From Limonium bicolor (lineage: Eukaryota; Streptophyta; Magnoliopsida; Caryophyllales; Plumbaginaceae): a DNA stretch of 64,000 nt. The stretch is from positions 39,934,171 through 39,998,170 of the forward strand of contig CM041776.1 of NCBI GenBank assembly GCA_023374045.1. Reading direction: 5' to 3'. Below are positions 32,682 through 62,302 of this stretch, in pieces; within the stretch, counting starts at the first letter, position 1, and the number at the start of each line of letters is the position of its first letter. A program made the translations under genes and the position numbers. The notes beneath the pieces were generated by a model that saw only the letters and a list, made by a program, of their open reading frames with translations, made no database searches and was not told the origin of the DNA.

Positions 32682-32961
32682 GTAAGTGCAGTAAACAACA
32701 AACCAAATATGAACAATCAAAGTTCACACACAATGAACGACTTAGATGCGTTCCCTTAATTAGAGAGTTGATTATTGAACTCTTTAAGTTATATTCCCTC
32801 TTAATCTTAGTCCATCCTTATGTAAGTGCAGTAAACAGCAAACCAAATATGAACAATCAAAGTTCACACACAATGAACGACTTAGATGCGTTCCCTTAAT
32901 TAGAGAGTTGATTATTGAACTCTTTAAGTTATATTCCCTCTTAATCTTAGTCCATCCTTAT
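32682..32961. repeat. 140-bp tandem duplication inside one LTR
   Basis: 32682-32821 and 32822-32961 are almost identical (GTAAGTGCAGTAAACA ... GTCCATCCTTAT). The left LTR has a single copy (about 22842-22990), so the duplication arose after, or at, insertion of this element. Confidence 0.88.
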
Positions 32962-33980: not shown

Positions 33981-34245
33981 GGTCGTTCGACCCGCCGTCC
34001 GACCCACCAACTGGGTCGGACCATTCCAGAGACTCTCGGGTTTGAGAAATTCCACTTGTCGGACCCACGTCTGACCCAACCAACTGGGTCGGACCATTAC
34101 AGAAATTTTCCGTTTTAAAACTCTCCCGTCCGACCCATGTCCGACCCAACCAACTGGGTCGGACCATTACAGAACCCTTAACTGACGTCTAAAAGAGGCC
34201 GTCCGACCCAAACTTGGGTCGGACCCCTGGGTCGGACGCCACCAG
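33981..34245. repeat. Palindromic GTCCGACCC repeat array in the 5' LTR
   Basis: Counterpart of 24001-24270, with the same four units and a few substitutions, some of which break single palindrome arms (GTCGGACCCACGTCTGACCC). Confidence 0.85.
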
Positions 34246-36945
34246 AATATGTCCAAAAATTGTAAATCTTCACCAAACTTCTCCTAAAGCCTTCTAATGT
34301 GTTCTAACATCATTTAGACCCTTAAACCCACCTTTAATCATCCTCCAAACTTATTAAAATAACCTCCAATGACCTTCTCAAACATTTTACTAAATTCTTG
34401 CAAACACTCCTAACACTTATCATATAGTTCCTTATATTCCAACATGTAAATTTTGTCTCAAACTTCAACTAACCAAAGTATCTCTTTTCAACCCATCTAA
34501 CTCCTCCTTAACATCATTACATCCCATCTTGCTTTGTTAGACCTTCCAATGCCCTCTTGCATTCTCATGCACCAATTCCTCTCCTTTCCTTTGGTTACTC
34601 ATCACTCTTAAACTCTTAAGCTTGCTATACATTCTTTCCATTACCTTAATACCTTGACATAGTTCTTCATTTACTTAACCATGCAACGCCCTCCTTAGAC
34701 ATTTCCACTTCTTTTATGCACTTACTCACCGTTCTCATGATCATACCCTCTTATACGTTCTAGTCATTTTCCTTGACGACTTACAACATTCTCCTACCAT
34801 TTTCACTTCCATCACCCAAGTCTACACATTACCATTCAACTAAACCTTACTAGTCCACCACTAACATCACCACCTCTTACACAAACTTCCCGAACTCTCA
34901 TTGTTCTTCTCTTAGTTCATACCTAAATTATCTCAAAGCATTATACATCATTTCCTCCAGATTTGCACAAGTCTTACCATTCCTCATACCATGACTTTGG
35001 TGTGTTCAATGCACCCATCTAACTCTAATTTCCTCATAGACCATTCTAGGTCATTCTAAACCTCAAGAACTCCTTAGTTAACTCATTTCCACTCAAATTC
35101 CTTTTTATGGCTCCTAGTAAATCCTAGGTCATATTAATTCACCACCATCACCTAAACACTTCTTTTCTACTCAAATTTCGCCATAGCTTCTCTAGTATCT
35201 TATCATGCCCAAACACATTATTTTCCTCATTCACCCATCTCACACACCAAGTTCTTTCTCATCATATCTCATCACCCAAACCAACTCATTCACAACAAAC
35301 TCAATATATTGCAATAATCTTAAATTGCATAGCACTAAGGCTCTTAAATGACATGGCTCTTAGGCCCTTAAATAACTTAAACTTAAACACTGAATTTCCC
35401 ACATATAAAAGCCTTTAACCTGCAAATACACCCATCAATCTCATAGTAGTTACAATACTCTTAAAATCCACCTTAACTTATATTACTAACTCATTATCAT
35501 TGGCTCCTTAATCACAAGTTCATAAGCTTGTTTAAGTTCTTTTTCTTAGGTTATATAACCCATTACCTAATGTAAGCCCTAGGCTACATTGGTACTCATC
35601 TAAAACTTATTCCTTAAACCTTAAACCACCATTAGATAGTAATTTACCTGTTTTCTCAAGCTTATCTTATCTTCCTCCTTAGACCTTCTTCTTGCATGAA
35701 TCCCGGCCACCACTTAAACTTCCTTTGCCAATGTTCTAATCAATATTCAATGACCCACATGAGTACTAAACAATACACTAACCTCAAGGAAAGAAAACCT
35801 AGGTTAGAAATGTGTTCTAAGGCATAAAAGTGGATGATTACCTTTGAAGTCTCAAGGTAGACTTTGGAATTGAATGAAATCGGACCTCCACTAGTCCTTG
35901 GTGAATAAATCAAGCTAGAACAAGGCATAAAAACAAGGCCCCATGAGTAGTAATTTTCGGCCATGGTGAGGGAGTGATGGAAACATGATTTTTCTTACAT
36001 TTTCTTTACCTTAAGAGAATGAAGAAGCTAATGAGCTCTTCAAACTTGATTTTCCTCCATCAATGGAGTTTTCTCATGGCACCAAACTTGAGCTTTGAAA
36101 GATTTGAAAAGATAGAAAGATAGGTCTTGGCCTAACTAAGAGAAATCTATACTCGGTTTTTGATTTGGAGCAAAGATGAACACTTGGTGAGCAATTGAAG
36201 GTGGAGCACCCATGGATGGAGCTCTCTCGGTTTTGGAGCAAGAGAAGAGAAGAAGAAACTGTGGGAAGAAGAGAAATGAAGAGAGAGAAGAAGAAAGGTA
36301 GCTTATTAAGAGATATTTTGCTTTTATAAAGCAAATAGTAACTTTACTTATTTCCCTCTTCTTTTCTTTAATTGAATGACTCATGTGGTGACTCACCACT
36401 CTCAAAAATCGGCCCCTTGTTAAATAAGGGCATGTTTGGCCTTTATTGACCAATTAACTAAACTAAGTTGATTAAAGACCAAACTAGTCACTATTTGGCA
36501 CTATTCACAAATTAGTGCACATATTTCTGAAATTTTTGATTTCCCATTGATTTAGGCTTCCTAATGTGATACTAATTAGTACACATGTTGATTAAGGTGT
36601 AATCATGGGCATTTAGCCACTCAAAACTCAATTCTAAGACAATTTCTCAAAAAAGTGCTTTAAGACTTCTTAAAGCACATTTTGTGTTTTAACTTGTTTT
36701 CAAGCTTGGTTTTCTTTGGTAATTGGTTTAAAATGACCATTATAATATTACTAAGGTCTTATCACGATATTTGGGTACTCACCCAAGTCTCTCCAAGCTT
36801 AGAGCACATTTTTGCCCTAATTGCCCTTAAGGCATTTTCTTGTGTTTCCTTGGTTTAAATTGTCTACAATCTTTCTAAGGCATATTCTAGCCTTACTACA
36901 TCATAATTTGATGTTTACTTAGCATACATAGGTTGGGGTATTTCA

Positions 36946-38772: not shown

Positions 38773-39193
38773 TGAAATACCCCTAACCTTTATATAATTA
38801 AATAATAATAAGTAAGTATTAATTAGGGGATTATTAAACCCTAAGAAGGTATATAAACACTTAGGCGTTAAAAACGCACCTAAACTCCTTAAGGTCAAAA
38901 ACGTGCACTAAAGCCCGACCTTAAGATAAACAAGTAGTATAAGCTATAAACTTCACATGAAGTTAACCAAGGATCATTATATGATCTTCAGAATGCAGGA
39001 CTTCATCTAAAACCGAGTGAAAATACAAAATGCTCGGGAGTTCCCTTAAAGGCCCTTAACGCCTGAAAGTCCCGGAAATACATAATAGGATGAAGTAAAG
39101 CTTTACACTTTATTCCAAATGCACCATAACACCTTATTAAATATATAAAATGAAGTTCTCAAGCTAAATTCTCAGTTAAACGCAAAGTGCTAG
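38773..39193 (+). repeat. Another old gypsy LTR, plus orientation, first part
   Basis: Begins TGAAATACCCCTAACC and is preceded by GTATTGGGGGAG, a polypurine-tract-like stretch, so it is probably the start of a 3' LTR of a plus-strand element. It is interrupted by element 2 at GCTAG (39189-39193) and seems to resume at 53819. Confidence 0.65.
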
Positions 39194-40743
39194 TGTAACA
39201 CCCCAACCGCTAATCCTTCCATTATCCTCTAATCAATCCATACTTACCCTTCTCGCAGCGGAATACTTACTTACTCCCGACGGGTGATACAACGCCGTTA
39301 ACCCTCCAAGGTTAACAAGGCTACTACTACTTACCGTTTCGGTCTGATGATTAGAATGAAATACATACATATTACTTACTTTACAATGCCCAATACTTAA
39401 CTTACATTTGATTACCGAGTATACTGAATATATGAATTACATTTCATGACTACCTCCCAAAAATGAAGAGTTTATACATCCTCTCCTTACTATCCAATCA
39501 AGGTTTCAATATCCAAAAAGGTGTACCACATGGTACACCGGCTACACAAAAGGCCTTAGCCGTGTACAACTCAGTACACCGTTTCAATCCCACTGTCTAC
39601 CAAAAAGTATCACGTTCCGTCCTTACCCTTCCGTCACGCCTCGCGGGTACCTGTGGAGTAAAAACATTCCCCCGAGGGGGTCAGCTTACGCTGAATATGA
39701 TAACCGCATACCCCGCGTACTAGCGAGGGTACGCTAACTATTTGGTCGAGTACATGCGGTTCGTTTCATTCATACATACATACATGCTTTATACAGTACA
39801 ATACAATACATTCATTTCACCGAGCATACATACATACAATACCTACAGGAAGTACAATACAAGTCATCCGTTTATACTTACCATACTCACCGCATCACGG
39901 AGATACAATTCTCCAATACATACAAAGGTCTTGTTAGCCTTATTACACACCCGGGTTAATCGGGTGTTCAATACTTTTACTCCGGGTCAATGACTTACAA
40001 TAGTCAAGACCAATACAAATACAATACTTACTTCTTACATACTTTACTTCCAGTTAAGTCGGTATGACCTCCGGGCAGGGATTACTACATCCCACCACCG
40101 GGCTTTAGGGTGGCCCACTAATCCAGGATGCTACCCATTCAAGGGATTTGGTCCAAGGAAAAGATTATAGCCAGGATTCGGATCCAACCTCTTGTGTTTC
40201 CTTATCCTCACGCGTGGCCGAAACTATATCGGGCTTCTACTCATTCCATTATACTCATTACCCATGTTAGGAGTTAGATGGTTAGGAATTAGTAGAAGTC
40301 CATACTTACTTCCCATACATGCATACAATACACAAGTACTCATACTTACACATACACTCCATTTCCATTCATACATTTCATGAATTATACAAACTAAATG
40401 TTCAAGAGCATAAAACAAGAACAACATAGTTCAAACACAATTAAGCGCAATATAAGTCCGATTCGTGCATTTATCTTGTTGGTGATCACATAAGCACACA
40501 AATCGGGGTAACCAAGTTAGGATACAGAGCATGAAGAAATCATACCGTTCACCGTCGTAGGGTACTACCGGTTCCTTTGGAGCTCAACTATTTGATTCCT
40601 ATACATACATGAAGTAGTATGATCAATGATCTATTATTGATCTAACTTACTCCTTCATTGATACTTTCAATGTATTCTTACTGCTCTATTACTTTCTTAC
40701 ACATTTGCTTACTTTCTTACTATTATTACTTCATTAATGGTGT

Positions 40744-40806
40744 GTTACTACATATATATGCATATATGTGTATAGGCATATATATATATATATATATGTA
40801 TATATG
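40744..40806. repeat. AT-rich microsatellite in the LTR
   Basis: (AT)n with CATATATATATGCATATATG punctuation. It is shorter in the other LTR (about 51383-51435), showing length change since insertion. Confidence 0.85.
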
Positions 40807-40842
40807 ATTACTATAATCATATAATTAAACATTTTTTTTTGC

Positions 40843-41310
40843 TCGGCCGGACTTGCGACCGACCTTGCAAGTCCGGTCCATTCCAGTAGACTACATCGTG
40901 TAAAATTCCAGGGCCGACCGACCTTGCAAGTCCGGTCCATTCCAGTAGGTTTCGTATTTGAAAATTTTAGCCCGACCGACCTTGCAAGTCCGGTCGCAAG
41001 GTCGGTCCATTCCAGTAGCTGGCATTATGGAAATTTTTTTCTGGCCGACCGGACTTGCAAGTCCGGTCGCAAGTTCGGTCTATTCCAGGAGCTTTCATCT
41101 GCGGAATTTTTCTGGCCGACCGAACTTGCAAGTCCGGTTGCAAGTTCGGTCCATTCCAGAAGGTTTCAGACGGGAGAATTTTCTGGTCCGACCGAACTTG
41201 CAAGTCCGGTCGCAAGGTCGGTCGATTCCAGAAGGTTTCCCGTCTTGTAAATCTGGGCTCGACCGACCTTGCAAGTTCGGTCCTAAGGTCGGTCCGGCCC
41301 AGTACTTCAG
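40843..41310. repeat. Palindromic GACCGACCTTGCAAGTCCGG repeat array
   Basis: Seven units of about 58-73 bp. The full unit is CGACCGACCTTGCAAGTCCG plus GTCGCAAGGTCGGTCCATTC, then CAGTAG/CAGAAG and about 20-25 bp of AT-richer, unit-specific spacer ending TTTTCTG or TTTTAG. The first half and second half are near-complements. The first two units lack the second arm in this LTR. Open frames on both strands here (CKSGRKFG..., LQVRSQGRSIP...) are repeat translations. Confidence 0.88.
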
Positions 41311-43227
41311 TTTTAAAATCTGTTTTTGGGTGTTTTCTTTACCCATTGTTTCCCCAATCTTTACCAATGTTTCCCCACCTGATTTAGCACTATTTACACA
41401 CTCTAAATCACCTTAATTCATCCTCCAAACTTACTACTCCATTCTTACACAACTTACACCAAATTTCCTCATTTCTTCCCAACACTTGCATCAGTTTTCA
41501 TTCTTCCTTTGTTACAGATTTTGTTTCCTCTTCTTATGCTACAGATTTTTATTCCAACTTCTATCCCTCATTACTCCCCCAACTAATGCTACTCCTAGTA
41601 TCCAAAATGCATTACTTTGCATCCTATATCTTCACATTACCTACACTCTTTTCACATCCGTTTTAAACTACAAAACACTCCTTTTAAACTCTCCAAGTAC
41701 TTCCTCTTCTTGAACACTTAAGTCCTCTCATTTCTACACAAAATTCGACATGGTCTCCCCTATATTTCTAACATTCTCCACACACTATTTCAGCTCACAA
41801 GTTCACATTCTCACAACCTGTTTATACAATACATTATTCTCACAATCCAACACTACTACAACACATAAATTCCTGCACACATACACATTCACTACCCAAT
41901 GTTTTCCCAAGTTTCAAACATCATTTAAAACTTCAAAAACTGTTACATTCTCTTCTCCAACACACTACTACATTACTACTACTCATTACTCAAATACATT
42001 ACTCATTTTACTACTTAAAAACTGTTACATTACAATACACAAACTAACACAAGGTAAGAGCATTTACCTTGTCTTGCTAGTTTTTCTTTCCTTTCTTTTC
42101 CTTCTCTTCTTCCTTCTTTCTTGTTCTCGGTTTTGAATGGGGTTCTCACCCAAGTTCTACAACCCATACCAATACACAACACCATTTAACATTCATGTTT
42201 GCACTAACCCTAGAATTTAATGTTTTAGGGTTTAGACAAGAGTATTACCTTTCAATGGGTGAATGAAGTTCTTGACTAGCAAGATAACAATATTCCTAGC
42301 CCAATGGAGAAGCCAAAATCGGCTGGGGCAAGAAGAACCAAGAGTTCAAAACATGGAAATTCTTATAATGCAAACAAGGGCTAGAAATGATGGATTTTCA
42401 AAATTCTTTTTACCTCAAGATGATAAGGAGGTGAAGGTGCTTCTAATGGTGGACTTGAATCTTCAAATGGTGAACACCCATAAAATCAAAAATGGAGCTT
42501 TTGGATTTTTGAAAGGAGGAAAGTGTTCTCCTTTGCAAGGGGATTCTAATGGTGTAATTTTTGTTGAGTTTGGAGAAGATTTGAGTACTCAAAGAGAGGA
42601 GAGAAGTGAGGAGTTTTGTGAGCTCTCTTCTTTCTCCATGAAAATCGCAAGGTAGAAGAAGAAGGAGGAAAAGAGAGAATAGAGAGGAGGGAAATCGTGA
42701 GGGAAGAGGGGAGTGAGGTGAGAGAGTCTTATTTTTTTTCCTTTCTTTATTTCCTTGTCTTTTAGTTAATAAGAGAGAAATAAAGAGAGTGAGAGAGGGA
42801 GGAGTGCTGGCCGCCCCCTACACACACACACAATCTGATTTTTACTTTTTATTTGCAATGTGGACACACTAAGTTTGTTTATTTGCATTCTTACCCCACA
42901 ACTTACCGGTTATTACAGTTTTCACTAACCGGTACCCGTTTTCCGGAATTTTCTCGTTTAATTAATTTTATTGGTTCTAAAGCCCCACTAATATTTATTA
43001 GTGACTATTTAGTTGACCAAAATTGTTACGAGTCTGTTTGACCCGCTTAAAGTCACGTTTTCCCGGTTTCCTCGAAAAACGCGCTTTAAGGTTCGTTTAT
43101 GCTTTTAATCCATTTTAAAGGTCCGTTTTCTTCGGGATTTGTTCCCTTGTATTTATTTTAGTGTAATTAAGCTTTTAAAAATATAATTAGCCTAATTAAT
43201 CACTGTTTTTAATTACGGGGTATTTCA

Positions 43228-43243
43228 ATCTACCCCCCTTAAG
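43228..43243 (-). other. Polypurine tract, gypsy element 2
   Basis: Minus-strand CTTAAGGGGGGTAGAT directly before the 3' LTR. Confidence 0.85.
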
Positions 43244-43722
43244 AAACTTTGCCCTCAAAGTTGCTCAAGGTTACAGTTTACCATTTCTACTCATTTGGCA
43301 AGCCAATTGCCACAATACATTCTACTACCACCTTACAAGGTGTTCACAATTCTTACACTACCAGCATACGCAATTCAGATACCATACGCAATACTCAATC
43401 CATACACAATACTTCATTCAATTCATACATTCCACAATACATTCGCAATACACTTCACAATGTCATTCGTGTCATATACCGTACAACACCAATGCATTAC
43501 TCATTACATACATACCATACACATCGTACTACATACCGAATACTACTAGCACCACTTTGTGCCAATACAATACAATTAGCACTACATGTGCCAACCGAAA
43601 TACAATTACAATACATACGTACTACGCAATGCTAACCAGAAGCAATGCAAAAGCAAAAAGGCTCTACCCCCCTTAAAAAGGGGTACGCCCCGTACCCTCC
43701 GTGCTATACGGGTACTAGACCT
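43244..43722 (-). other. Pol 3' untranslated segment with a second PPT-like tract
   Basis: Between the pol stop and the PPT, about 480 bp of CATAC/ACATT-rich non-coding DNA. A second polypurine-like tract (minus strand CCTTTTTAAGGGGGGTAGAG) lies at about 43657-43676, close to the pol stop. Confidence 0.7.
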
Positions 43723-46480
43723 CTAGTCTACAAACAGATTCGGGTACTTCGCCTTCATGGCATCCTCTAATTCCCAAGTCGCTTCCTCGACATCGTGGTT
43801 AGACCACAAGACCTTCACCATTCGTACAGATTTATGGCGAGTGTCTCTTGTCTTCGTATCAAGGATTCGAGTGGAGTCTCGACATATCTATCGTCGGTCT
43901 AGGGATAGATGTTCGGGTTCTAATACATGAGAGGGATCGGCTATGTATTTCTTGAGTTGTGATACATGAAAGACATCATGAACACGCCCCAATTCTTCAG
44001 GCAATGCTAGCCTATAAGCTACGGCTCCAATCCTCTCGGTAATGGTATACGGGCCTACAATTTCGGGCTCAGCTTGCCCTTTTGGCCAAATCGAAAGACA
44101 CCCTTCATAGGTGAGACACGCAAGAACACTTGGTCGCCCACGGCGAACTCAAGGTCGCGTCGTCGCACATCCGCATAGGATTTCTGTCTATCTTGGGCTG
44201 CTTATATTTGCTCGGATTTGTTGTACCTCAGCTTGTACTTGTTCCAAATACTCCGGTCCTATGATGACCGCTTCGCTTGACTCATCCCAACACAACGGGG
44301 TACGGCAAGGTCTACCATACAAAGCTTGGAATGGCGACATCTTAATCGAAGCATGGTAGCTATTGTTATACGAAAACTCGATAAGATGAAGCTTCTCAAT
44401 CCAGCTCCCCTGGAAGTCTAAGGCACATGCCCTTAGCATATCCTCTAGTGTTTGGATGGTCCTTTCTGTCTGACCGTCGGTCTGTGGATGGAAGGCGGTG
44501 CTAAGCTTCAACTCAGTACCAAGCGCTTCCCGTGTTGCTCTCCAGTATCTCGAAAGAAATCTGGTGTCGCGGTCAGATACAATGGTTTTCGGGACTCCGT
44601 GGTGTCGGATGATCTCCTTGTCGAATAGCTCTGCGAGCTTCGCCACCTTCCAGGTGTCCTTCATCGGTATGAATCGGGCAACCTTGGTGAGACGATCGAC
44701 TACTACCCAGATCATGTTGAGTCCTCCCCTAGCAGGTGGGAGTCCAACAACAAAATCCATAGAGATATCGTGGAATTTCCACTCCGGAATGGGCATGGAT
44801 TGCACCATTCCTCCCGGTCTTCGGTGCTCGAACTTCACCTTCTGGCATGTGAGACACCTCAGAACATACTCAGTCACGTCTGACTTCATTCCTGACCACC
44901 AGAAGTACCTCTTCATGTCTTTGTACATTTTAGAGGCTCCCGGATGGACATGCAATGTCGAACAATGTGACTCTCGCAGAATGCGATCCCTTAGCTCAGC
45001 ATTGCTTCGGGGGACGCATAATCTGCCATTCAAACGGATCAGACCATCTTCATGCAGTTTGAAGTCGTACTTTCGGCGCTCGAAGGTACCATCTGTGATT
45101 TTCTGTCTGATCTCTGTGAAGTAAGGGTCGCTCAACTGAGCGTCTCGCACCTCGTCAACCAAGCTAGAAGAAGCGAGTAGCGAATGGAGCGAGTGTGCTC
45201 GACGACTCAGGGCGTCGGCTACTACGTTTGCCTTCCCTTCTTTATACTGGAGGTTGATGTCGTAATCCGAGAGGAACTCCATCCACCTCCTCTGCCTTAG
45301 GTTCAATTCTTTCTGGGTGAATACGTACTGTAAACTTTTGTGGTCGGAGTAGATGGTGATGCTTACCCCATAGAGATAGTGTCGCCATATCTTCAAGGCG
45401 AAGACAATGGCTCCTAACTCTAGATCATGTGTCGGGTAATTCTCCTCATGCTTTTTCAGCTGGCGAGAAGCATAGGCTACTACCTTGCCATGCTGCATGA
45501 GTACGCATCCCATGCCCTTGCCCGATGCATCACAATACACCTCAAATCCCTCTGTGCCCTCTGGAAGTGTGAGAATTGGCGCTGAGGTCAATGAGTCTTT
45601 TAGTTTCTGGAAGGATACCTCGCACTCCTTTGTCCATACAAAGGGTGCATCTTTCTTCATCAATGACGTCATGGGCTTAGCGACTTTTGAGAAGTCCTTT
45701 ACAAACCTCCGGTAATAACCGGCTAAACCAAGAAAGCTCCGGATGTCGGTAACAGTCTTAGGTCTAGGCCATGATCGCACTGCTTCGATTTTGGATGGAT
45801 CTACTGAAATGCCCGCGCTCGAGATGACATGACCGAGGAATGATACCTGATCTAGCCAAAACTCGCATTTGGAGAACTTCGCATACAGCTGGTTCTCGCG
45901 CAGTGTCTCAAGTACTCTTCTCAAATGGTTTTCATGTTCTTCTGGTGACTTCGAATACACAAGAATGTCGTCAATGAATACTACTACTGAAGTGTCCAGC
46001 TGATCACTGAATAACCGATTCATTAGGTCCATGAATTTGGCTGGTGCATTAGACAAACCGAATGGCATCACCGTGAATTCGTAGTGGCCATATCTTGTTC
46101 GGAATGCTGTTTTCTCAATCTTGCTCTTTGATAGCAATTTGGTGGTATCCGGATCGGAGATCAATCTTAGAAAAGACGGATGCTCCCTTCAATGATCGAA
46201 CAGGTCGTCGATGCGTGGCAATGGGTACTTATTCTTTACAGTGACCGCATTCATTCATTCGGTAGTCGATGCAGAGGCGGAGACTACCGTCCTTCTTCTT
46301 CACGAAGAGGACCGGTGCTCCCCAGGGTGATACGCTCGGGCGTATAAACCCTTTGTCGAGAAGATCATGTAGTTGTTCTTTGAGTTCTGCCATTTCTGCT
46401 GGTGCCATACGGTATGGTGCCCTAGCAATGGGACCAGTACCCGGTACAGGTCGATTCAAATTCTACCGCCTCTCTGTGGT
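43723..46480 (-). pseudogene. Gypsy element 2 pol: RT, RNase H, integrase, chromodomain
   Basis: A 658-codon open stretch (46164 down to 44188) covers most of RT to integrase. RT '[20 protein letters not shown]' is near 46330 in the preceding frame; the catalytic '[11 protein letters not shown]' is near 45970. RNase H has '[13 protein letters not shown]', '[16 protein letters not shown]' and '[10 protein letters not shown]', so the acidic residues are present. Integrase has an H-H-C-C finger ending '[12 protein letters not shown]', then 'SMDFVVGLP', 'IVSDRDTRF' and '[19 protein letters not shown]' (D, D, E present). The C-terminus continues in other frames through 'VFHVSQLKKYIADPSHVLEP' to a chromodomain ('[20 protein letters not shown]', then 'KYPNLF') with stop TAG at 43723-43725. 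Frame breaks lie near 46245, 46190, 46150, 44200, 44075 and 43905. This polyprotein copies and integrates the element; the chromodomain is thought to steer integration to heterochromatin. Confidence 0.92.
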
Positions 46481-47091
46481 GGCATACCAGGTAGCTCTTT
46501 CGGAAATACATCAGGGAATTCTGAGACTACTGCTACCTCATCACTGAACTCTGGATCTCTCTCCAGGTCTTGCACGTGACATAAATACACTTCATGTCCT
46601 TTTCTGAGCTCCCGATACATTGCCATGGCGGAGATGACTGTAGTTGAAGGCTCTCTCGGTCTCTGGCGGTATGAAACAGTGACCCCAGATGGACTCTTGA
46701 GCAGCAATCGGTGCTCGGCGCATAGGATTCTCCCCTTGTGCCGCTCCAACCAGTTCATTCCAATTATAAGTCGAATCCCAATCCGTTGAATTCAATGAAG
46801 GAAATGGGAAACGCTTCACCTTTGATTTGAATGGTGGCTGATTTGTAATACTTGGTACACTGTACCCGCTCCTTCGATGGGAGAGTAACCAAGAAGTTCG
46901 GTAGCTCATCCGCATCTAGCCCCAACTTCTTCGCAAGAGATGGCGATATGAAGGTGTGAGAGGCGCCGGAGTCGAATAATACTGAGGCTTCGATGCCGTT
47001 TACTGGGAAGTTCCCGTTAGAATGGTGCCGCTCTTGCCGGCTTGTTCTTCGGTGAGGATGCTCAGGTTACCTTCGGTACCGAGTCCACAAC
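46481..47091 (-). pseudogene. Gypsy element 2 protease region
   Basis: The aspartic protease active site 'LFDSGASHTFIS' is read from about 46980 to 46945, followed by 'SLAKKLGLDADELPNF'. After frame breaks the typical post-protease signature appears: 'NWLERHKGRILC' at about 46758, then 'EFPDVFPKELPGMPP' near 46480-46530. The stretch starts at a splice-acceptor-like CAATAG (minus strand, 47092-47097), right after the AlkB 3' UTR. Confidence 0.85.
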
Positions 47092-47233
47092 CTATTGATT
47101 CATGAGATTATAAGTAAAGATGGTGGAACGCAAGTGGAATTTAATAACCAACACTGCTTTTATTGAATAACCAACCATCATACATACTGTGTCTCTAATA
47201 CACGTTACTACTGGATTACATGCTACTACAAGA
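47092..47233 (-). other. AlkB 3' UTR-like segment with AATAAA and splice acceptor
   Basis: On the minus strand, 142 bp after the AlkB-frame TAA (47234-47236). It is AT-rich, with AATAAA at 47159-47164, and ends in CATGAATCAATAG, an acceptor-like sequence just before protease-linked coding DNA. It could terminate an AlkB-containing transcript or act as the end of an intron. Confidence 0.55.
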
Positions 47234-47991
47234 TTAATACTTTCTAAAGGTAAGGTTCAGGCGTCCTGGTTCATGTGTGTGGCATTGATTATTGCCGGTG
47301 GTGCCGTATTCAACTTGATCTTCTGGATCCCGTGATACAGCAACCTTGATTTTCCACCCATGATTAGAACATCTCCTGATCTCAATACCAATTTCTCTGC
47401 GAGGTCCACACGCTTCCGCTCGCTATACAAAAATACGGCGTCATCACCAATGGACCAAGACACTACGGGCACTCCTAGTTCAAGAGATTCCGCTGTCTCG
47501 TCCTTGTCTTGGTGTAAGCCAAGTCGTCCTTCTTTCTCATAGAAGTTGACGATACACAGATCTGCTTCAAGTGCAGGGATTGGTTCATCTTCACATTGTT
47601 GTGCAATTTCTACAGCTTGTGTGACAAGCATTTGGAATTCTGGGGGTATTGCTGGAGGTGTTGCTCCGTCTCCTGCTCGCGTTGTTTGGTATGTCTTGGT
47701 ATAAGGGTTCCAGTCCTTTCCCAAGCACATCATTTTCAGCTTCATTGTAGCTCCACCGGGGAATTCGGGTGTATAAAATCCTCCTGGACCCGTTCCTAAC
47801 TCGTTGCATCGTCGGATGATTGAAACTTGTGCTTCGGGTGTCAGGTATCCTTTTAATAAGATCATACCTGGGCGGATGACCTGACACTGTTCGTTGTTGA
47901 AGTGGTGATTGGCGATGTCGGTCTCTTCATGAGGTGAGTTTGAAGGTATTGGGTAACAGATATGGAATTTCCCTAAGGTGGTAAATTTCAT
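47234..47991 (-). CDS. AlkB-family 2OG-Fe(II) dioxygenase inside the retrotransposon
   Basis: AlkB-family oxidative demethylase that would remove methyl groups from nucleic-acid bases using 2-oxoglutarate, O2 and Fe(II). The open frame of 244 codons begins ATG 47989-47991. The N-terminus has 'FHICYP', like plant ALKBH proteins. The core has 'IRPGMILLKGYLTPEAQ' (39-55), 'GGFYTPEF' (70-77), 'MKLKMMCLGKDWNP' (83-96), 'CIVNFY' (146-151) and 'GRLGLHQDKDE' with metal ligands H160 and D162, then 'LLYHGI' with distal ligand H220. The frame ends at 47257, but the next frame immediately continues with PGRLNLTFRKY and TAA at 47234-47236, the segment holding the two 2OG-binding arginines. A one-base deletion near 47267 therefore separates them. 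No introns interrupt the domain, unlike typical host genes, which suggests capture from processed RNA. It lies between gag zinc knuckles and protease on the same strand. An in-frame TAG directly precedes the ATG and doubles as a CTCTAG splice-acceptor-like sequence. Confidence 0.93.
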
Positions 47992-48161
47992 CTAGAGTGA
48001 GTTCTAGGCTTACTAATTCATTTCATGCTCAATACATACTTCCATGTTACTTACTCATGCTCAATTTCATACTTCAAGTACTTACGCATTCATGCTTTCA
48101 TTCATACAATTACTTTAATACTTAGTCATGCTCTTCAAGGATTAAAGGTTACAGTGGTTAC
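47992..48161 (-). other. Putative intron between gag and AlkB
   Basis: Minus strand: donor CAG|GTAACC at 48161, acceptor ACTCTAG at 47992, 170 bp, AT-rich, with repeated ATGC/CATTCATG-type motifs. The gag frame is open up to the donor (…HIIDRDGTGLSPAQ) and the join to ATGAAA is in phase, giving Gag fused to AlkB. Supported by sequence signals only. Confidence 0.5.
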
Positions 48162-48513
48162 CTGGGCCGGACTTAGTCCCGTCCCATCACGGTCTATGAT
48201 GTGTAAGGCCGGCTGCCTCTGCGGTGCGCCCTTCTGCGGACCTCGGGACCCTGTCCCTGCGAGGTGTGCTGGGCATGAGCATCGCCAGATGCAACCTCCT
48301 TGCCCTCACGCTGCTTGTAGCCCTGGTAGTTGCCCTTGGGCTTAGAGTTCTCCGGGCATGCATTGGCACGGTGGCCCGGTTTCTGACAAGTGAAGCAGCG
48401 GATCTCCCTTCCTTGGCAATCTGTGCCGGGATGATCCTTGTTGCAGTTACGGCAGATGTAGCTGCGGCCATCAGATTGGTTCTTTCCTTGGCCAAATCCG
48501 AACCTATAGCGAA

Positions 48514-48606
48514 CTATAGCTTCCAAGTTAGCAAGGTTCGGTATACTTACAATACTCCACATACATACTAATTCACAAGTGTACTAATTCGGTTTCGGTT
48601 TCTTAC
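48514..48606 (-). other. Putative intron 2 in gag
   Basis: Minus-strand GTAAGAAACC...GGAAGCTATAG, 93 bp, AT-rich, with an in-frame stop. Removal joins 'SQPYR' to 'VRYRFGFGQGKNQ' in phase. GTAAG is a strong plant donor. Confidence 0.5.
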
Positions 48607-48866
48607 CCCTGTAGGGCTGAGACCTCAGTGGCTTCGCTGCCACTGGTGCGGTGTAGGCAAGCTGCAACGGCTCAGCTGCCTTGCCCTTCTCAGCATGGGC
48701 ACCGCCGTCTCCTTTGTTCTTATGGTGGGAATGCTTCCCTTTCTTCTTCTTCCAGGTTTGGATTGGTTTTGGTCATCGGGGGCTTTGCCGCTCACCTTGC
48801 GCTTCAGCGCTTGCTCCCTCTTAGCTGGCAGGTGATCTCAACTCGAGATGCAGCGTGGTAACACTC

Positions 48867-48953
48867 CTGAATTACTTAGGCATTAGGTTACATTTACATA
48901 CGGGAATACTAATTCACATTACTCATGGCTTTTTAAGGGTTCAACTTGTTTAC
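48867..48953 (-). other. Putative intron 1 in gag
   Basis: Minus-strand CAG|GTAAAC...AATTCAG|GAG, 87 bp, with an in-frame TAA soon after the donor. Removal joins 'FTSLQ' to 'ECYHAASRVE', restoring continuous gag-like sequence. Confidence 0.6.
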
Positions 48954-49617
48954 CTGAAGGGAGGTAAACCGTGTGAAGCCCATGCCATACCGGAGTCGAT
49001 GGCTCAATCCGCCGTAGAAGCGGTCGACCAAGACTTGGCCGGTATACCCAAGGTCGGGTAGAAGTCGGAGAAGAGAGGTGAAGGTGCGGTAATATTCATC
49101 AACCGTCATCTTCTCGGTCATTTTTAGTGCGTCGAGCTCAAGCCTTTTCTTGGTCTTGACATGCTCGGGGTAGTACTTAGATCGGAGGAGAGAGGTGAAT
49201 GCTTCCCATCCGAATGCGGGATCAGCTATGTGCTCGGCCTTAACGAGCTTCCACCAGTCCATAGCCGCGTCTTTGAGGTAGTACGCAGCTATCCTCACTC
49301 GAACTCCAGCGGGAGTCTCAAGTGTCTCGAAGGCCGTCTCCATCTCGGAGAGGTAGGCCTCGAGCTTGGCGGGGTCGCTCTCGCCTCTAAAGCATGGAGG
49401 TCGAAGGTCGGCGACAGCTTTTACCCAATTTTTTTCTCGGGGATGAGGTGGGTCGGGGGCTGCTGCTGCTGCTGCTGGTTTTGCTGTGTTTGTTGTACAG
49501 CGTGATTACATCCGGTAGCATCTGTGCTACCGTGGCGGCGACGATTTCAGCTATCGTCTGCGCGCTTGGTCCTTCGTTGCCCCCTCCTCTGGGACGACCT
49601 GGACCACGTCCTGACAT

Positions 49618-49825
49618 CTGAACAAGTGTGGATTACATTAGATGTCGTGATACTATGACCTCATGGTCTTCATTCAAACAATGGTATCGTCTTGCAGACG
49701 TTAATGGTATCCGTTATTGCTAACGGTAGTTCCTAGTTAGGTTTCTAAATATCCGTCTTAAGACGGTTGAAATCCTAACTCGGTAATCACTACTCTTAAG
49801 ATTCTAATCATCAGAGCGAGACTTC
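49618..49825 (-). other. Gypsy element 2 leader between PBS and gag
   Basis: About 210 bp of untranslated leader containing repeated TAAGACGG/CCGTCTT and TAGTTCC/GTTAGC motifs; presumably holds the RNA packaging signal. Confidence 0.5.
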
Positions 49826-49831
49826 GCTCTG
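49812..49831. other. Hairpin overlapping the PBS, gypsy element 2
   Basis: CAGAGCGAGACTTCGCTCTG: inverted arms CAGAGCGA/TCGCTCTG around a 4-base loop. Same place and stem sequence as 32222-32241 in element 1, with the loop and stem-closing pair changed in a compensating way. Confidence 0.75.
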
Positions 49832-49837
49832 ATACCA
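49826..49837 (-). other. Primer-binding site, gypsy element 2
   Basis: Minus-strand TGGTATCAGAGC five bases from the 5' LTR, for initiator tRNA-Met. Confidence 0.9.
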
Positions 49838-49842
49838 CTTTT

Positions 49843-52800
49843 TGTAACACCCCAACCGCTAATCCTTCCATTATCCTCTAATCAATCCCATACTTACCCT
49901 TCTCGCAGCGGAATACTTACTTACTCCCGGCGGGTGATACAACGCCGTTAACCCTCCAAGGTTAACAAGGCTACTACTACTTACCGTTTCGGTCTGATGA
50001 TTAGAATGAAATACATACATACTTACTTTACAATACCAATACTTACTTACATTTGATTACCGAGTATCTAATATATGAATTACATTCCATGACTACTTCC
50101 CAAAAATGAAGAGTTTATACATCCTCTCCTTACTATCCAATCAAGTTTCAATATCCAAAAAGGTGTACCACATGGTACACCGGCTACACAAAAGGCCTTA
50201 GCCGTGTACAACTCAGTACACCGTTTCAATCCTACTTCCCAAAAAGAATCACATCCGTCCTTACCCTTACCGTCACGCCTCGCGGGTACCTGTGGAGTAA
50301 AAACATTCCCCCTAGGGGGTCAGCTTACGCTGCATATGATAACCGCATACCCCGCGTACTAGCGAGGGTACGCCAACTATTTGGTCGAGTACATGCGGTT
50401 CGTTTCATTCATACATACATACATGCTTTATACATACAATACAATACATTCATTTACCAAGCATACATACATACAATACATACAAGGAATACAATACAAG
50501 TCATCATTCATACTTACCATACTCACCGCATCACGGAGATACAATTCTCCAATACATACAAAGGTCTTGTTAGCCTTATTACACCCGGGTTAATCGGGTG
50601 TTCAATACTTTTACTCCGGGTCAATGACTTACAATAGTCAAGACCAATACAAATACAATACTTACTTCTTACATACTTTACTTCCAGTTAAGTCGGTATG
50701 ACCTCCGGGCAGGGATTACTACATCCCACCACCGGGCTTTAGGGTGGCCCACTAATCCAGGATGCTACCCATTCAAGGGATTTGGTCCAAGGAAAAGATT
50801 ATAGCCAGGATTCGGTTCCAACCTCTTGTGGTTCCTTATCCTCACGCGTGGCCGAAACTATATCGGGCTTCTACTCATTCCATTATACTCATTACTCATG
50901 TTAGGAGTTAGATGGTTAGGAATTAGTAGAAGTCCATACTTACTTCCATACATACATACAATACACAAGTACTCATACTTACACATACACTTCATTTCCA
51001 TTCATACATTTCATGAATTATACAAACTAAATGTTCAAGAGCATAAAACAAGAACAATATAGTTCAAACACAATTAAGTGCAATATAAGTCCGATTCGTG
51101 CATTTATCTTATTGGTGATCACATAAGCACACAAATCGGGGTAACCAAGTTAGGATACAGAGCATGAAGAAATCATACCGTTCACCGTCGTAGGGTACTA
51201 CCGGTTCCTTTGGAGCTCAACTATTTGATTCCTATACATACATGAAGTAGTATGATCAATGATCTATTATTGATCTAACTTACTCCTTCATTGATACTTT
51301 CAATGTATTCTTACTGCTCTATTACTTTCTTACACATTTGCTTACTTTCTTACTATTATTACTTCATTAATGGTGTGTTACTACATATATATGCATATAT
51401 GTGTATAGGCATATATATATATATATGTATATATGATTACTATAATCATATAATTAAACATTTTTTTTTGCTCGACCGGATTTGCGACCGACCTTGCAAG
51501 TCCGGTCCATTCCAGTAGACTACATCGTGTAAAATTCCAGGGCCGACCGACCTTGCAAGTCCGGTCCCAAGGTCGGTCCATTCCAGTAGGTTTCGTATTT
51601 GAAAATTTTAGCCCGACCGACCTTGCAAGTCCGGTCGCAAGGTCGGTCCATTCCAGTAGCTGGCATTACGGAAATTTTTTTCTGGCCGACCGAACTTGCA
51701 AGTCCGGTCGCAAGTTCGGTCTATTCCAGAAGCTTTCATCTGCGGAATTTTTCTGGCCGACCGAACTTGCAAGTCCGGTTGCAAGTTCGGTCCATTCCAG
51801 AAGGTTTCAGACGGGAGAATTTTCTGGTCCGACCGAACTTGCAAGTCCGGTCGCAAGGTCGGTCGATTCCAGAAGGTTTCCCGTCTGTAAATCTGGGCTC
51901 GACCGACTTGCAAGTTCGGTCCTAAGGTCGGTCCGGCCCAGTACTTCAGTTTTAAAATCTTTTTGGGTGTTTCTTTACCCTTGTTTCCCCACCTGATTTA
52001 GCACTATTTACACACTCTAAATCACCTTAATTCATCCTCCAAACTACTACTCCATTCTTACACAACTTACACCAAATTTCCTCATTTCTTCCCAACACTT
52101 GCATCAGTTTCATTCTTCCTTTGTTACAGATTTGTTCCTCTTCTTATGCTACAGATTTTTATTCCAACTTCTATCCCTCATTACTCCCCCAACTAATGCT
52201 ACTCCTAGTATCCAAAATGCATTACTTTGCATCCTATATCTTCACATTACCTACACTCTTTTCACATCTGTTTTAAACTACAAAACACTCCTTTTAAACT
52301 CTCCAAGTACTTCCTCTTCTTGAACACTTAAGTCCTCTCATTCTACACAAAATTCGACATGGTCCCTATATTTCTAACATTCTCCACACACTATTTCAGC
52401 TCACAAGTTCACATTCTCACAACCTGTTTATACAATACATTATTCTCACAATCCAACACTACTACAACACATAAATTCCTGCACATATACACATTCACTA
52501 CCCAATGTTTTCCCAAGTTTCAAACATCATTTAAACTTCAAAAACTGTTACATTCTCTTCTCACACACTACTACATTACTACTACTCATTACTCAAATAC
52601 ATTACTCATTTTACTACTTAAAAACTGTTACATTACAAACACAAACTAACACAAGGTAAGAGCATTTACCTTGTCTTGCTAGTTTTTCTTTCCTTTCTTT
52701 TCCTTCTCTTCTTCCTTCTTTCTTGTTCTCGGTTTTGAATGGGGTTCTCACCCAAGTTCTACAACCCATACCAATACACAACACCATTTAACATTCATGT

Positions 52801-53818
52801 TTGCACTAACCCTAGAATTTAATGTTTTAGGGTTTAGACAAGAGTATTACCTTTCAATGGGTGAATGAAGTTCTTGACTAGCAGAGAACAATATTCCTAG
52901 CCCAATGGAGAAGCCAAAATCGGCTCGGGGGCAAGAAGAACCAAGAGTTCAAAACATGGAAATTCTATAATGCAATAAGGGCTAGAAATGATGGATTTTC
53001 GAAATTCTTTTTACTCAAGATGATAAGGAGGTGAAGGTGCTTCTAATGGTCGACTTGAATCTTCAAATGGTGAACACCCATAAAATCGAAAATGGAGCTT
53101 TTGGATTTTTGAAAGGAAGGAAAGTGTTCTCCTTTGCAAGGGGATTCTAATGGTGTAATTTTTGTTGAGTTTGGAGAAGATTTGAGTACTCAAGAGAGGA
53201 GAGAGGGGAGTTTTGTGAGCTCTCTTCTTTCTCCATGAAAATAGCAAGGTAGAAGAAGAAGGAAGAAAAGAGAGAATAGAGAGGAGGGAAATCGTGAGGG
53301 AAGAGGGGAGTGAGGTGAGGAGTCTTATTTTTTTTTCCTTTCTTTATTTCCTTGTCTTTAGTTAATAAGAGAGAAATAAAGAGAGTAGGAGGGAGGAGTG
53401 CTGGCCGCCCCTACACACACACAATCTGATTTTTACTTTTATTTGCAATGTGGACACACTAAGTTTGTTTATTTGCATTCTTACCACCCACAACTTACCG
53501 GTTATTACAGTTTTCACTAACCGTACCCGTTTTCCGGAATTTTCTCGTTTAATTAATTTTATTGGTTCTAAAGCCCACACTAATATTTATTAGTGACTAT
53601 TTAGTTGACCAAAATTGTTACGAGTCTGTTTGACCCGCTTAAAGTCACGTTTTCCGGTTTCCTCGAAAAACGCGCTTTAAGGTTCGTTTATGCTTTTAAT
53701 CCATTTTAAAGGTCCGTTTTCTTCGGGATTTGCTCCCTTGTATTTATTTTAGTGTAATTAAGCTTTTAAAAATATAATTAGCCTAATTCAACACTGTTTT
53801 TAATTACGGGGTATTTTA
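49843..53818 (-). repeat. Gypsy element 2, 5' LTR (3976 bp)
   Basis: Direct repeat of 39194-43227. Its terminal bases are TTTTA instead of TTTCA, a likely post-insertion mutation of the conserved end. No gene is supported within it. Confidence 0.88.
51471..51945. repeat. Palindromic repeat array in the 5' LTR of element 2
   Basis: Counterpart of 40843-41310. The second unit here keeps both arms (CCGACCTTGCAAGTCCGGTC plus CCAAGGTCGG), while the left LTR has lost one, so whole arms are gained or lost quickly. Confidence 0.85.
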
Positions 53819-56800
53819 GCTATGAGATGCCTTATGGGGATCTCATAAACCCTCGGGAATGCCCAGGAGGAGTGCCGAGGTGGCACGAACCCCTATAAAA
53901 TTAATTATTAGAGCTCCTAACATCATTATTCAACATTCTAAAGAGAATGAACGAGCTACTTCCAAGAAAATAAACAAAATACTCGGACGAATTTCTTAAC
54001 GCTCCTTTTTGCCCGGTTAGCCCGAGAGTGGTGTTCTGAGTTGATATAACCCCATATAACTCAATGTAACACCTTAACATATTATTATTGACTATAAAAA
54101 ATGTCAATAAACACTTGGAACTCATAGCGATTAATTATTTCTCAGAAAATTCTTAAAGCACAAAAAACGCACCTTCGGGTGTCACGAAAATGCGTTTTAC
54201 GCAATTGCCTTGAAATGTTTGGGGAGCCACGAGTTGATAATCTTAAAAGGGGATACATTGACCATCTAAATCAGTTGATGGCAGTACTAAATTCATAGTA
54301 CAATTGGGGGCGATTTTACCATCAAAAAGGTACCTAAAATCAGCATTTTTACCTTAAAACTTTCATCTTTTTCCATCATATAAATGTACCAATTAAATGC
54401 TGGAACCTATTACACATATTAGTATGGTCTTAATAAAATATAGTGTACCAAAAATCAAGTTAAAAATCAACTCCATCTGATCTCCAATGCATGCGCCAAT
54501 AAGAGTCAATTTTGACTAGTTTTTAGTTTAAAAATTGTCTTATGGATGGTGAGTCATCTAAGCATGTATTATATGATGTTATAGCAATCAAATACTGTCA
54601 ATGAAGCCTCCTCCACCGTGTGCCTACACAAAGAAACAAGAAGAAGAATTAATATAAGAAAAGCAAGGAGAATTAGTCTAAGCAAACTAATGAAATAAAA
54701 TACAAAACGAAGATCTAGCTTTTACAAGAATATAAACTAATGGAGCAGCCCATGTGCTGTCTATTAACGACCGATTCCTTGCCAATTAAATGGGGGATTA
54801 ATTGCTGTCTATCTAGCTAAATAATACACCACCTAACTAGCTTGATCTATTGTCTAACATTGATCAAAAATCCATTGTCTTATACTAACTAGTGTGTCCG
54901 ATTTATATACAAGAAAGAGGGCTGGTTGCCTTATAAAATTCAAGCTAAATTGTCTACCTACCAAGCCATGATATGTGGTTTCAATTATCACAAAATCTGT
55001 AGCCTATACCCACATGTACTACCGTAAAACACAAGGAGAATCAAGGACAATCAATGTAGAAAATTCAAAAGAAAACACTTACCTATATCTACTCTTGTCT
55101 TCTAGTTTCAAGTGGCCAACAAAGCTCCATTATTTCCCTTCTAATCAACCGATTTCTTTCTATCAATTAAGGACTTTAGTGAACCAATAATGAGAGCAAA
55201 AACTAAGAAAAGAATGCCTAATCAAATAAACAATAAACAGCTAATAAAAATTTGAATTCACTTTCCATTGCCTTATTCATACGTGAGTCAGACTCATTCT
55301 TCCTTTGCCATTCTCCATGGCCGGTTGGTAAGGCATCTCATCCTATCTTTTCTTTCTTCATTTGCTAAGTTCATTCCTTAAGAGCTCCAAAGCTCCATTA
55401 ATGGTGAATTAAGTTCTAACACCATTTCTATGTAAATTCCTAGTTAAATCTCCTAAGTTTTGAAGCAAGAAATCATCCTTAGAATCTTACAAGATTTCGC
55501 CAGCATTAGTACTCCGGAGGTTCCTAAATTCAACAACAACACAAGGAACAAAAGATCAAGTTAAGGTATATTTTCATGTTGAAAATCCTAAGTAATTACC
55601 TAAACCATTTTCGAAAATTTAGAACTTCTAAACCTATGTTCTCTTCATTATTTCATGAAGGAAACTTGGATCTACATCATCACAAGGTGTATCAAAAACC
55701 TTGATAAATTATACGGTAAACTTTGTAAAACTACTCCAAATCTTATTTATAAATTTGTTAGAAGTCTAACAAATGGATCTCCTAAATATATACAAGGAGG
55801 CCCGAATTCTCTACATCATATAGCATTTGAGGAGCTTGGAATTCAAGGAGAAATCAAGTCAAGATTGTCTTGAGTTAAGGAGTAAGTTTTATATAATTAA
55901 GGTTTTTAAGTTTAAGCTTGATTTAAGCTTCAACTTTGGTATAAAAATATGATAAACCATTACATATAATTAAGGCCAAAAATATTGGTTTATATTGTCA
56001 AGAAAAATATTTATAACATATAAGGTAAGATTATTACCTTAAGGTATAAATATGTGTCACAAAAATTAGTTAGGATGCATATAAATATCCATTCTGAATT
56101 ATTCAGGTTTATTTTCTATTTGAGATATAATCATTCTAAGTCATTAGCATAATTTTTAGAAGTGTTATGTGGCTTGTATACATTTATATGTATTTATTAT
56201 ATGGTTTAAATCAAGTTTTAAAACTATATGGTAAAGGAATATAAAACCGAGGCAAAGTATTGCATTGATGATTTTTGAGATATATATAAGTGTATTAACT
56301 TATATTATAAATTTTGGGAATTTAAAAATAGCTACAAGTATTTGAATGGCTATTTATAAAGTTATGTGGCTAAAAATGTAAATTTTGAAAGTTTGGTGTA
56401 CAAATTATAATTGCCGAGAGTAAGGAGTTATTGGTAAATTTATGTTATAACTATAAGGTAGGAATTATATTATGATTTTGGTGAATTTAAATAAGTGTTT
56501 AAGTGTAAAATAACAATTTAATAGTTAGAGAACTGTTTTTGTAATTATTGAGAAGTTGGAGAATATCCGAGAATTACATATGATTTTATGGGTATATTCA
56601 AGTATTAATTATGAAATTAAGTCTTGGTCAAAGTGTTGACAAAAACTTTGGGTTAAAAATGATTTATGACATAAAATATTAAGTTTATAAAAGTTTTAGG
56701 GTGAACTTGTAATTTATGAAAGTATATGTAAAAAATAAAAGTTAAGTGGGGCAGAAATATAAATTAAGAAAGATATGGGTTTGTTTTGGTTATTTAAAAG

Positions 56801-60844: not shown

Positions 60845-62302
60845 TTACTGCTCGAACAGGGAGGGAAACTTGGCACGCAGCTCATCTTCGAGCTCCCACG
60901 TAGCTTCACTCTCTAACTGATCAGACCACTGGACCTTCACCATAGGCAGGGTCTTACTACGAAGCTGACGGACGTCCCTGGCTAGAATGCGAGTAGGCAC
61001 CGCCTCGAAACTGCAATCCTCTCTCAGCTGAAGCTGGCTGTAGTCGATCACGTGAGACGGATCATGCAGATACTTCCTCAACATAGACACATGGAAAACT
61101 CCGTGGACAGCAGACAAAGCAGGTGGCAAAGCCAAACGGTAAGCCACAGGGCCAATCCTCTCCAGAATCTCAAACGGTCCAACGAACCTTGGGCTAAGCT
61201 TCCCACGCTTCCCAAACCGGACTACGCCTCTGACCGGCGACACTCGCAGATAGACATGATCACCAACATCAAACTCAAGCGGCCTGCGCCTCTGATCTGC
61301 ATAGCATTTCTGCCTACTCTGGGCAACAATCAAACGCTCTCGGATCACCCGGATCTTCTCCACTGCACCCTGCACCAGCTCGGGGCCAACCAAAACCCTC
61401 TCCTTCAGGTCGTCCCAACAGATGGGGGACCTGCACCTCCTACCGTACAACGCTTCAAACGGAGCCATACCAATGCTCGCCTGGAAGCTGTTGTTGTAGG
61501 CGAATTCGATCAGAGTCACATGCTCCCAGCTACCTCCAAAGTCCAAGACACATGCGCGAAGCATGTCCTCCAAAACCTGATTAGTCCTCTCTGTCTGGCC
61601 ATCCGACTGTGGATGGTAAGCTGAACTGAAGGCCAAACTCGTACCCAGGGCCTTATGTAAACTACGCCAGAATCTCGAAACAAAACGTGGGTCACGATCA
61701 GACACAATAGTGGTAGGCACACCATGCAACCTCACTATCTCATCCAAATACAAACGAGCTAGACGCTCCAAACTGAAGGTCTTCTTCACTGGCAGAAAAT
61801 GAGCAGACTTAGTCAGACGATCAACTATCACCCAAACGGCATCACAGCCCGAGGAAGTCTTGGGCAAACCCATGACAAAATCCATCCCCACACTCTCCCA
61901 CTTCCACTCAGGAACGGAAAGGGGCTGAAGCAAACCTGCTGGCCTCTGGTGCTCAGCCTTCACCTGCTGACAGGTCTGGCACTTCGAAACAAACTCAGAG
62001 ATGTCACGCTTCATTCCAGACCACCAGAAAGACTCTCGGAGATCCCGATACATCTTCACCCCTCCTGGGTGAACTGAATATGGCGCTCCATGGGCCTCCT
62101 GAAGGATCTCTCTGCGCAGCACTGCATCGTCTGGCACACATACACGGCCTCTGAAACGCAGACAACCATCACTGGAGACACTGAAATCTGAACTCTGCTC
62201 TGAAGACAGCCCCTCTCTAATCCGACATAAAGCTGAGTCTGACTCCTGACCAACCCGGATCCTGTCGACCAACGAAGACTGCACCTGAAGCGCTGCTATC
62301 AC
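60845..62302 (-). CDS. Gypsy element 3 integrase plus chromodomain (485 aa, open)
   Basis: Continuous frame covering the C-terminal half of pol. Integrase zinc finger: '[11 protein letters not shown]' then 'KCQTCQQVK' (residues about 75-115). Catalytic core: 'GMDFVMGLP', '[13 protein letters not shown]', '[20 protein letters not shown]' with D, D and E (about 135-250). A GPY/F-like module '[20 protein letters not shown]' and '[17 protein letters not shown]' follow, then a chromodomain '[20 protein letters not shown]' and '[18 protein letters not shown]' to 'KFPSLFEQ' and the stop. In full-length elements this is part of one polyprotein; the ATG at 62302 is not a true start. This is the best-preserved coding stretch of the window besides AlkB and the element 2 pol. 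Confidence 0.93.

Follow-up and report, generated by a model that had tools for sequence, protein, structure and literature searches.

AlkB-bearing LTR retrotransposons are already known. According to the available part of PMC9289625, Ogre/Tat elements in the orchid Phalaenopsis carry an ALKBH5-type AlkB that demethylates m6A in vitro, and a screen of 121 angiosperm genomes detected AlkB elements in Phalaenopsis only. The same part of that source describes elements of 25 kb with a reverse transcriptase (RT) sister to Ogre within Tat, a tRNA-Arg primer site, gag-pol as one ORF and a paALKBH5-like protein of ALKBH5/9/10 type encoded by a separate ORF2 of 565 aa. A further plant genetic parasite with AlkB, likened here by description, is found among the Betaflexiviridae and relatives, but these are RNA viruses (PMC9289625, available part). 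With regard to splicing, plant LTR elements are described as generally intronless, with exceptions such as Ogre and EVADE, while BARE1 has a spliced short gag RNA (PMC12786077, available part); the Ogre intron lies between GAG-PROT and RT (PMC6317226, available part). In a search of the open-licence literature for LTR elements with an AlkB inside, PMC9289625 and the citing review PMC12786077 were the only pertinent ones among the matches listed, as judged by titles and the beginnings of abstracts, and a word search of the available part of PMC7264820 returned no mention of AlkB.

The Phalaenopsis elements (PMC9289625, available part) contradict the preliminary description of the locus reported here, which held that LTR retrotransposon gene sets include no 2OG dioxygenase. 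The present element, from Limonium bicolor, is likewise a high-copy plant Ty3/gypsy element with a plant-type AlkB whose catalytic residues are present. It differs from the Phalaenopsis elements in being a chromovirus of 14.6 kb, in a gag-pol that appears to be split by introns and in an enzyme, known from sequence, that is nearest to rice OsALKBH1 and lies in a putative intron between gag and protease. This is not the ALKBH5/9/10-type, separate-ORF arrangement, since the best structural matches are OsALKBH1 and E. coli AlkB and the site is between gag and protease. As in Ogre, EVADE and BARE1, partial splicing would set which protein is made; however, the available parts of the sources on those elements mention no intron-encoded enzyme, whereas in the Limonium element one donor would choose between AlkB and protease-RT. 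Within the literature searched, an intron-embedded ALKBH1-type AlkB as a predicted alternative gag exon in a chromovirus is new.

The window (the whole stretch of 64,000 nucleotides that was analysed) contains the following parts of the element:

39194-53818, minus strand: whole LTR retrotransposon, 14.6 kb, Ty3/gypsy chromovirus
39189-39193, no strand: target-site duplication GCTAG, matching its partner GCTAT at 4/5 bases
39194-43227, minus strand: 3′ LTR, about 4 kb, pairing with 49843-53818
43726-43887, minus strand: chromodomain-like end of pol (PF00385 24.4 bits, just below the 25.1 cut-off)
44188-46164, minus strand: RT, RNase H and integrase (PF00078, PF17917, PF17921; PF00665 25.9 bits, below the 32.6 cut-off)
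46767-47091, minus strand: initial part of the protease exon (DSGASHTFIS), whose frame is disrupted in the window copy; the open stretch of copy L014 matches RVP_2 at 96.2 bits
48162-48503, minus strand: gag exon 3 with a CCHC zinc knuckle (PF00098 26.2 bits), ending at the shared donor
48936-49505, minus strand: gag capsid, exon 1 (PF03732 63.5 bits at 48933-49343), its frame continuing into intron 1 until a stop
49826-49837, minus strand: primer-binding site TGGTATCAGAGC, 5 nt past the LTR
49843-53818, minus strand: 5′ LTR, about 4 kb, pairing with 39194-43227; outer end TA, perhaps mutated from TG
53819-53823, no strand: target-site duplication GCTAT, partner of GCTAG (4/5 bases)

The order of gag, protease, RT, RNase H and integrase is that of a Ty3/gypsy chromovirus, and the element is bounded by an LTR pair and the 4/5-base duplication. 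The primer-binding site TGGTATCAGAGC is presumably of the initiator tRNA-Met type, in contrast to the tRNA-Arg site of the orchid elements, and together with the chromodomain-like end it points away from Ogre/Tat; the element may resemble the Tekay clade of chromoviruses. Between the two LTRs, identity is 98.46 % across 3956 aligned bases free of gaps (K2P 0.0156), and 96.5 % in a gapped blastn alignment. Both gag and pol of the window copy are broken, often through small indels, and one-base indels disrupt frames in many family copies, even closely similar ones. Given such similar LTRs, some of the damage to gag and pol in the window copy may come from assembly errors. Assembly errors are also possible for the frame-breaking indels among family copies in general.

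The AlkB ORF (244 codons, 47257-47991, minus strand; the plus strand has stops there) is located between the zinc knuckle stretch (48562-48194) and the DSGASHTFIS-bearing protease stretch (47066-46767), inside the LTR pair. It matches Pfam PF13532 at 135.8 bits (cut-off 31.2), and its metal ligands H160, D162 and H220 align with those of the rice structure 5xeg and of E. coli AlkB, giving the 2OG-Fe(II) domain and HxD...H arrangement of AlkB dioxygenases. Domain, ligands and position thus agree with the preliminary description, in which the introns, the alternative splice and the altered AlkB end of the window copy had no part. The last of these, together with the broken gag and pol, makes the window copy a less than ideal representative of its family: its C terminus, like those of copies L002 and L005, ends in HMNQDA before the stop and has lost the RxxxxxR motif. 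The motif (R.N.TFR, C-terminal, for 2-oxoglutarate) is kept in 48 of the 66 copies fetched, typically as PGRLNLTFRKY before the stop.

An AlkB active-site 26-mer, allowing up to three mismatches, matched 12,828 places (6,527 + 6,301; places, not full elements) in the 2.92-Gb genome, and its reversed control matched none. The window AlkB as query returned 51,800 first-look candidates, 150 of which were scored (95-100 % identity, 22 with a stop); these are biased to good AlkBs. We obtained a less biased sample of 16 copies by taking the upper and lower end of 150 scored gag matches, and found AlkB about 1 kb downstream of gag in 16/16. Chance insertion of AlkB into one copy only, with a separate target duplication, is rejected on these counts, and AlkB is part of the element family, as first proposed. 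DNA identity to the window is 93-99 % in 11/16 gag-picked copies (the 11 listed); the low amino-acid identity of some of their AlkBs was attributed to frameshifts on account of this DNA identity. A test of frame and motif recovered a full AlkB frame in 0/16 gag-picked copies, although the motif may have overlooked an intact frame in L142 (252 aa).

Stops between the gag blocks recur at the same places across copies, each bounded by GT and AG. In the genomic DNA, they fall within three phase-matched GT-AG candidate introns that would divide gag-pol, with AlkB inside the third:

48867-48953, minus strand: candidate intron 1, 87 nt, phase 0; exactly missing in copies L121 and L148
48504-48606, minus strand: candidate intron 2, phase 1; the window copy has a duplicated acceptor region; exactly missing in L148
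47973-48161, minus strand: predicted intron 3A, between the shared donor (GTAACC) and the AlkB acceptor, CCACCTTAG followed by GG
47092-48161, minus strand: predicted intron 3B, with AlkB inside, from the same donor GTAACC to the protease acceptor, AATCAATAG followed by GTTGTGG
47257-47972, minus strand: predicted AlkB alternative exon (PF13532), from Pfam and ligand alignment; fold and Pfam from copy L014

GT and AG are present at all sites in 28/28 aligned copies (L008 and L017 excluded as partial). Across 50 copies, the donor and acceptor of intron 1 are both in phase 0 (44/44 readable each), those of intron 2 in phase 1 (donor 45/45, acceptor 45/46 readable), and the donor and protease acceptor of intron 3 likewise in phase 1 (48/48 readable each). 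At the AlkB acceptor (CCACCTTAG, then GG), 66/66 copies have the AG and 66/66 are in phase 1, and donor 3 and this acceptor are both in phase 1 in 64/64 readable of the 66. Shared indels end 15 bases before the AlkB acceptor, 29 copies sharing one at -15, and none is shared downstream in the stretch examined. Later copies include broken splice sites: donor 3 reads AT in L128, donor 1 reads TT in L151 and acceptor 2 is changed in L147. Intron 1 is precisely absent from L121, an AlkB-bearing copy, and the intron-1-free junction was found at 361 places (up to two mismatches; 31 exact; control 0). As these places include an intronless sister family (L149 and L150), they are no count of splicing events.

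The search for further elements with the gag-AlkB-protease order that the preliminary description had called for returned not only the first family at high copy but also a diverged second one. This second AlkB family was found with rice OsALKBH1 as the genome query (150 matches scored, 52-58 % identity to rice; 13 inspected). Its order is also gag, AlkB, protease; its AlkB is 59 % identical to that of the first family, and the RT-side match is 72.7 % identical. Intron 1 is lacking in 3/3 gag stretches. Two insertions in gag, of 70 and 76 alignment columns, distinguish copy L155 from L153 and L154, which have neither: one, bounded by GT and AG, lies where intron 2 is in the first family, and the other is further upstream. 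Phase 1 was found for the donor (5/5 readable), the AlkB acceptor (11/11) and the protease acceptor (11/11), the AG of the last being lost in L160 and L162. One of the 13 inspected matches, L165, probably represents a third AlkB-bearing family, nearer to the first, with acceptor-like sites at homologous places. The matches listed for the OsALKBH1 query did not include the ALKBH gene of the host itself, intronless copies having filled the list.

Both predicted junctions of the third intron exist as genomic copies, which argues, indirectly, for AlkB as an alternative 3′ exon; in genomic sequence, one donor after the zinc knuckle can join in frame to either protease or AlkB. The gag-protease junction, with AlkB removed, was found at nine places (four exact, three with one mismatch and two with two; reversed control 0), and five of the nine were fetched (L148-L152). 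L148 is without all three introns, has one open gag-protease stretch of 499 aa and is 98.2 % identical to an AlkB-bearing copy. L151 and L152 are without intron 3 only. L149 and L150 belong to the sister family, which is about 82 % identical and, in the fetched stretch, has neither introns nor AlkB; this family may stem from a fully spliced founder copy.

The gag-AlkB junction, predicted with the acceptor (TTAG, then GG) to which the homologous site of the second family had pointed, was found at four places (L166-L169; control 0), each carrying the same one mismatch. In L166, 276 aa are open without interruption: the final 31 codons of gag exon 3 and then, across the junction, AlkB as far as its stop. 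L168 is open across the junction for 204 residues; L167 and L169 have this junction too, with frames that are broken. The H220 ligand is Y in L166 and L167 (99.3 % identical to each other) and is kept as H in L168 and L169. In all four copies, introns 1 and 2 and the protease acceptor are still present. Outside the close L166-L167 pair, divergence among them is 7-9 %, which suggests an old sublineage, perhaps going back to one event. Since introns 1 and 2 are retained in L151, L152 and L166-L169, splicing would have to be partial. Two candidates for the borders of the AlkB stretch were discarded. Two genome searches for gag joined at a first-guess AlkB acceptor slightly upstream (TCTAG, then ATGAA) returned 0 places, and an 8-bp repeat, AGGTAACC, flanking the AlkB stretch was rejected as a target duplication because both splice junctions and the second family account for the borders.

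Our preferred reading, to which we assign a probability of roughly three in four (0.76), is that the gag-pol gene of a high-copy plant chromovirus has AlkB as an alternative 3′ exon, most likely yielding a Gag-AlkB fusion. The host spliceosome would make both RNAs from the one donor: removal of the whole third intron would give Gag-Pol, while splicing to the inner acceptor would give Gag with AlkB at its end.

It is unlikely that AlkB is instead a separate gene inside the element, expressed from its own ATG or its own promoter, with the introns serving Gag-Pol only. AlkB is a separate ORF in the orchid elements, and an ATG stands directly after a stop at the start of the ORF (TAGATGAAATTTACC) in the window copy and 19 others of the 66 fetched; however, 33/66 copies have a form without that ATG and 13/66 have other variants (50 of the 66 having been picked by AlkB score), and the ATG is upstream of the conserved acceptor, in the region with shared indels. 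As this acceptor sits 19 bases inside the ORF, the ATG of the 244-codon ORF is probably not the real start. The open AlkB frame of the second family also starts without an ATG, and the gag-AlkB fused copies likewise speak against a separate gene and in favour of the alternative exon.

A test of constraint across element copies had been suggested at the outset, and it indicates that AlkB looks to be under purifying selection. Among variants shared by at least two of the 16 gag-picked copies, AlkB has an N:S of 20:26 (pN/pS 0.23, p 7e-7 against an unweighted neutral expectation uncorrected for transition bias; the stretch began at the first-guess acceptor, so that about 16 of its bases are now counted as intron). 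The zinc-knuckle exon (14:25, pN/pS 0.16) and the protease stretch (7:21, pN/pS 0.11) behave similarly in these copies. Values for exon 2 (28:11, pN/pS 0.78), for introns 1, 2 and 3A (pN/pS 0.85, 0.72 and 0.54) and for the stretch after AlkB (0.90) are not significant. AlkB differs from the pooled non-coding stretches (p 0.004). A comparison of private with shared variants gives p 0.002 for all 67 rows and, as a point against the preferred reading, p 0.08 for the 16 gag-picked copies alone. Frame-changing indels were set aside in this analysis, their counts being an edge artefact.

LTR elements capture host fragments, and AlkB might be one that hitchhikes, copied along with a successful element to which it is of no use. 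Such a passenger would fit the sister family L149/L150, which has neither AlkB nor introns, and the broken AlkB of most gag-picked copies, but it would hardly show a constraint like that on the protease and zinc knuckle, nor be expected in families whose AlkBs are 59 % identical and with catalytic residues kept in the three copies aligned; we regard it as quite improbable. That the intron-less junction copies are ancestral forms predating the introns and the arrival of AlkB, and not traces of splicing, is very improbable. In its favour, the intronless, AlkB-less L149 and L150 (about 82 % identical) are both among the 361 intron-1-free places. Against it, L148, L151 and L152 have 97-98 % identity to copies with AlkB, and introns 1 and 2 are still present in L151 and L152. 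The third intron with AlkB also occurs in the more distant second family (72.7 %, RT side), which makes the AlkB-less copies look derived.

An AlphaFold2 model of the L014 AlkB reached a pLDDT of 85.3, with residues 1-25 below 50 (39-sequence alignment of three element and 36 bacterial rows). Foldseek returned OsALKBH1 as its best PDB match (TM 0.82/0.91, 50 % identity) and E. coli AlkB as the next, and the catalytic residues are kept in all three element copies aligned. In a tree of 27 rows, which included 16 of 80 bacterial loci and had OsALKBH1 as its sole plant AlkB, without any viral AlkB, the AlkBs of the elements group with OsALKBH1 in a single clade (100/99); a long-branch warning applies, and the order inside this clade cannot tell one capture from two. 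The kinship to plant ALKBH proteins first read from short motifs thus holds with one plant AlkB in the tree, and the element AlkB appears closest to OsALKBH1 by sequence and modelled fold; at about 50 % identity, the rice protein (5xeg, 5xoi) is its closest relative in both solved structure and sequence. The element enzyme probably derives from a plant ALKBH gene acquired before the AlkB-carrying families diverged. As to a viral origin, one IMG/VR scan gave no relative; a second showed an AlkB gene at 32 % identity on one viral contig (L111, 8001-8528).

OsALKBH1 is the product of a host gene, whereas the element protein would be fused to Gag. According to the available part of PMC10469495, rice ALKBH1 is a 6mA demethylase with a chromatin role and a preference for DNA that is unpaired or single-stranded; when it is lost, R-loops carry more 6mA. 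By analogy, Gag assembly could bring Gag-AlkB into the particle, where an ALKBH1-like 2OG-Fe(II) dioxygenase could demethylate element RNA, single-stranded cDNA or RNA:DNA hybrids; alternatively, the element AlkB could act on host chromatin at new insertions. We propose tentatively, at less than even odds, that alternative splicing loads the particle with a demethylase in the form of Gag-AlkB, which clears adenine methylation from cDNA, RNA:DNA hybrids or insertion sites, an ALKBH1-type answer to host marks that arose independently of the orchid ALKBH5-type m6A eraser. The Limonium elements would carry an AlkB of another subfamily, captured, apparently independently, by a different Ty3/gypsy lineage; it is present at thousands of places and constrained, which suggests that plant retrotransposons repeatedly come under pressure from nucleic-acid methylation. 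An alternative exon shows how a retrotransposon could gain a gene without breaking gag-pol, and the genomic copies that match each splice form would serve as its fossil record; the arrangement also opens a direct test of whether a demethylase is in the particle and what its substrate is.

Finally, several matches to the AlkB 26-mer lie in steps of about 10.6 kb (C1:7387134, 7397780, 7408386 and 7418970; C1:112193772 and 112204382), a distance corresponding to one LTR plus the internal region, which suggests tandem LTR-internal arrays. Elsewhere in the window, a second pair of 4.1-kb direct repeats (22851-26979 and 32825-36945, 97.9 % identical, 5.8 kb apart) perhaps belongs to another LTR element, and a partial second chromovirus-like pol (60845-63902, minus strand; gag outside the window) has 47-68 % protein identity to the AlkB element.
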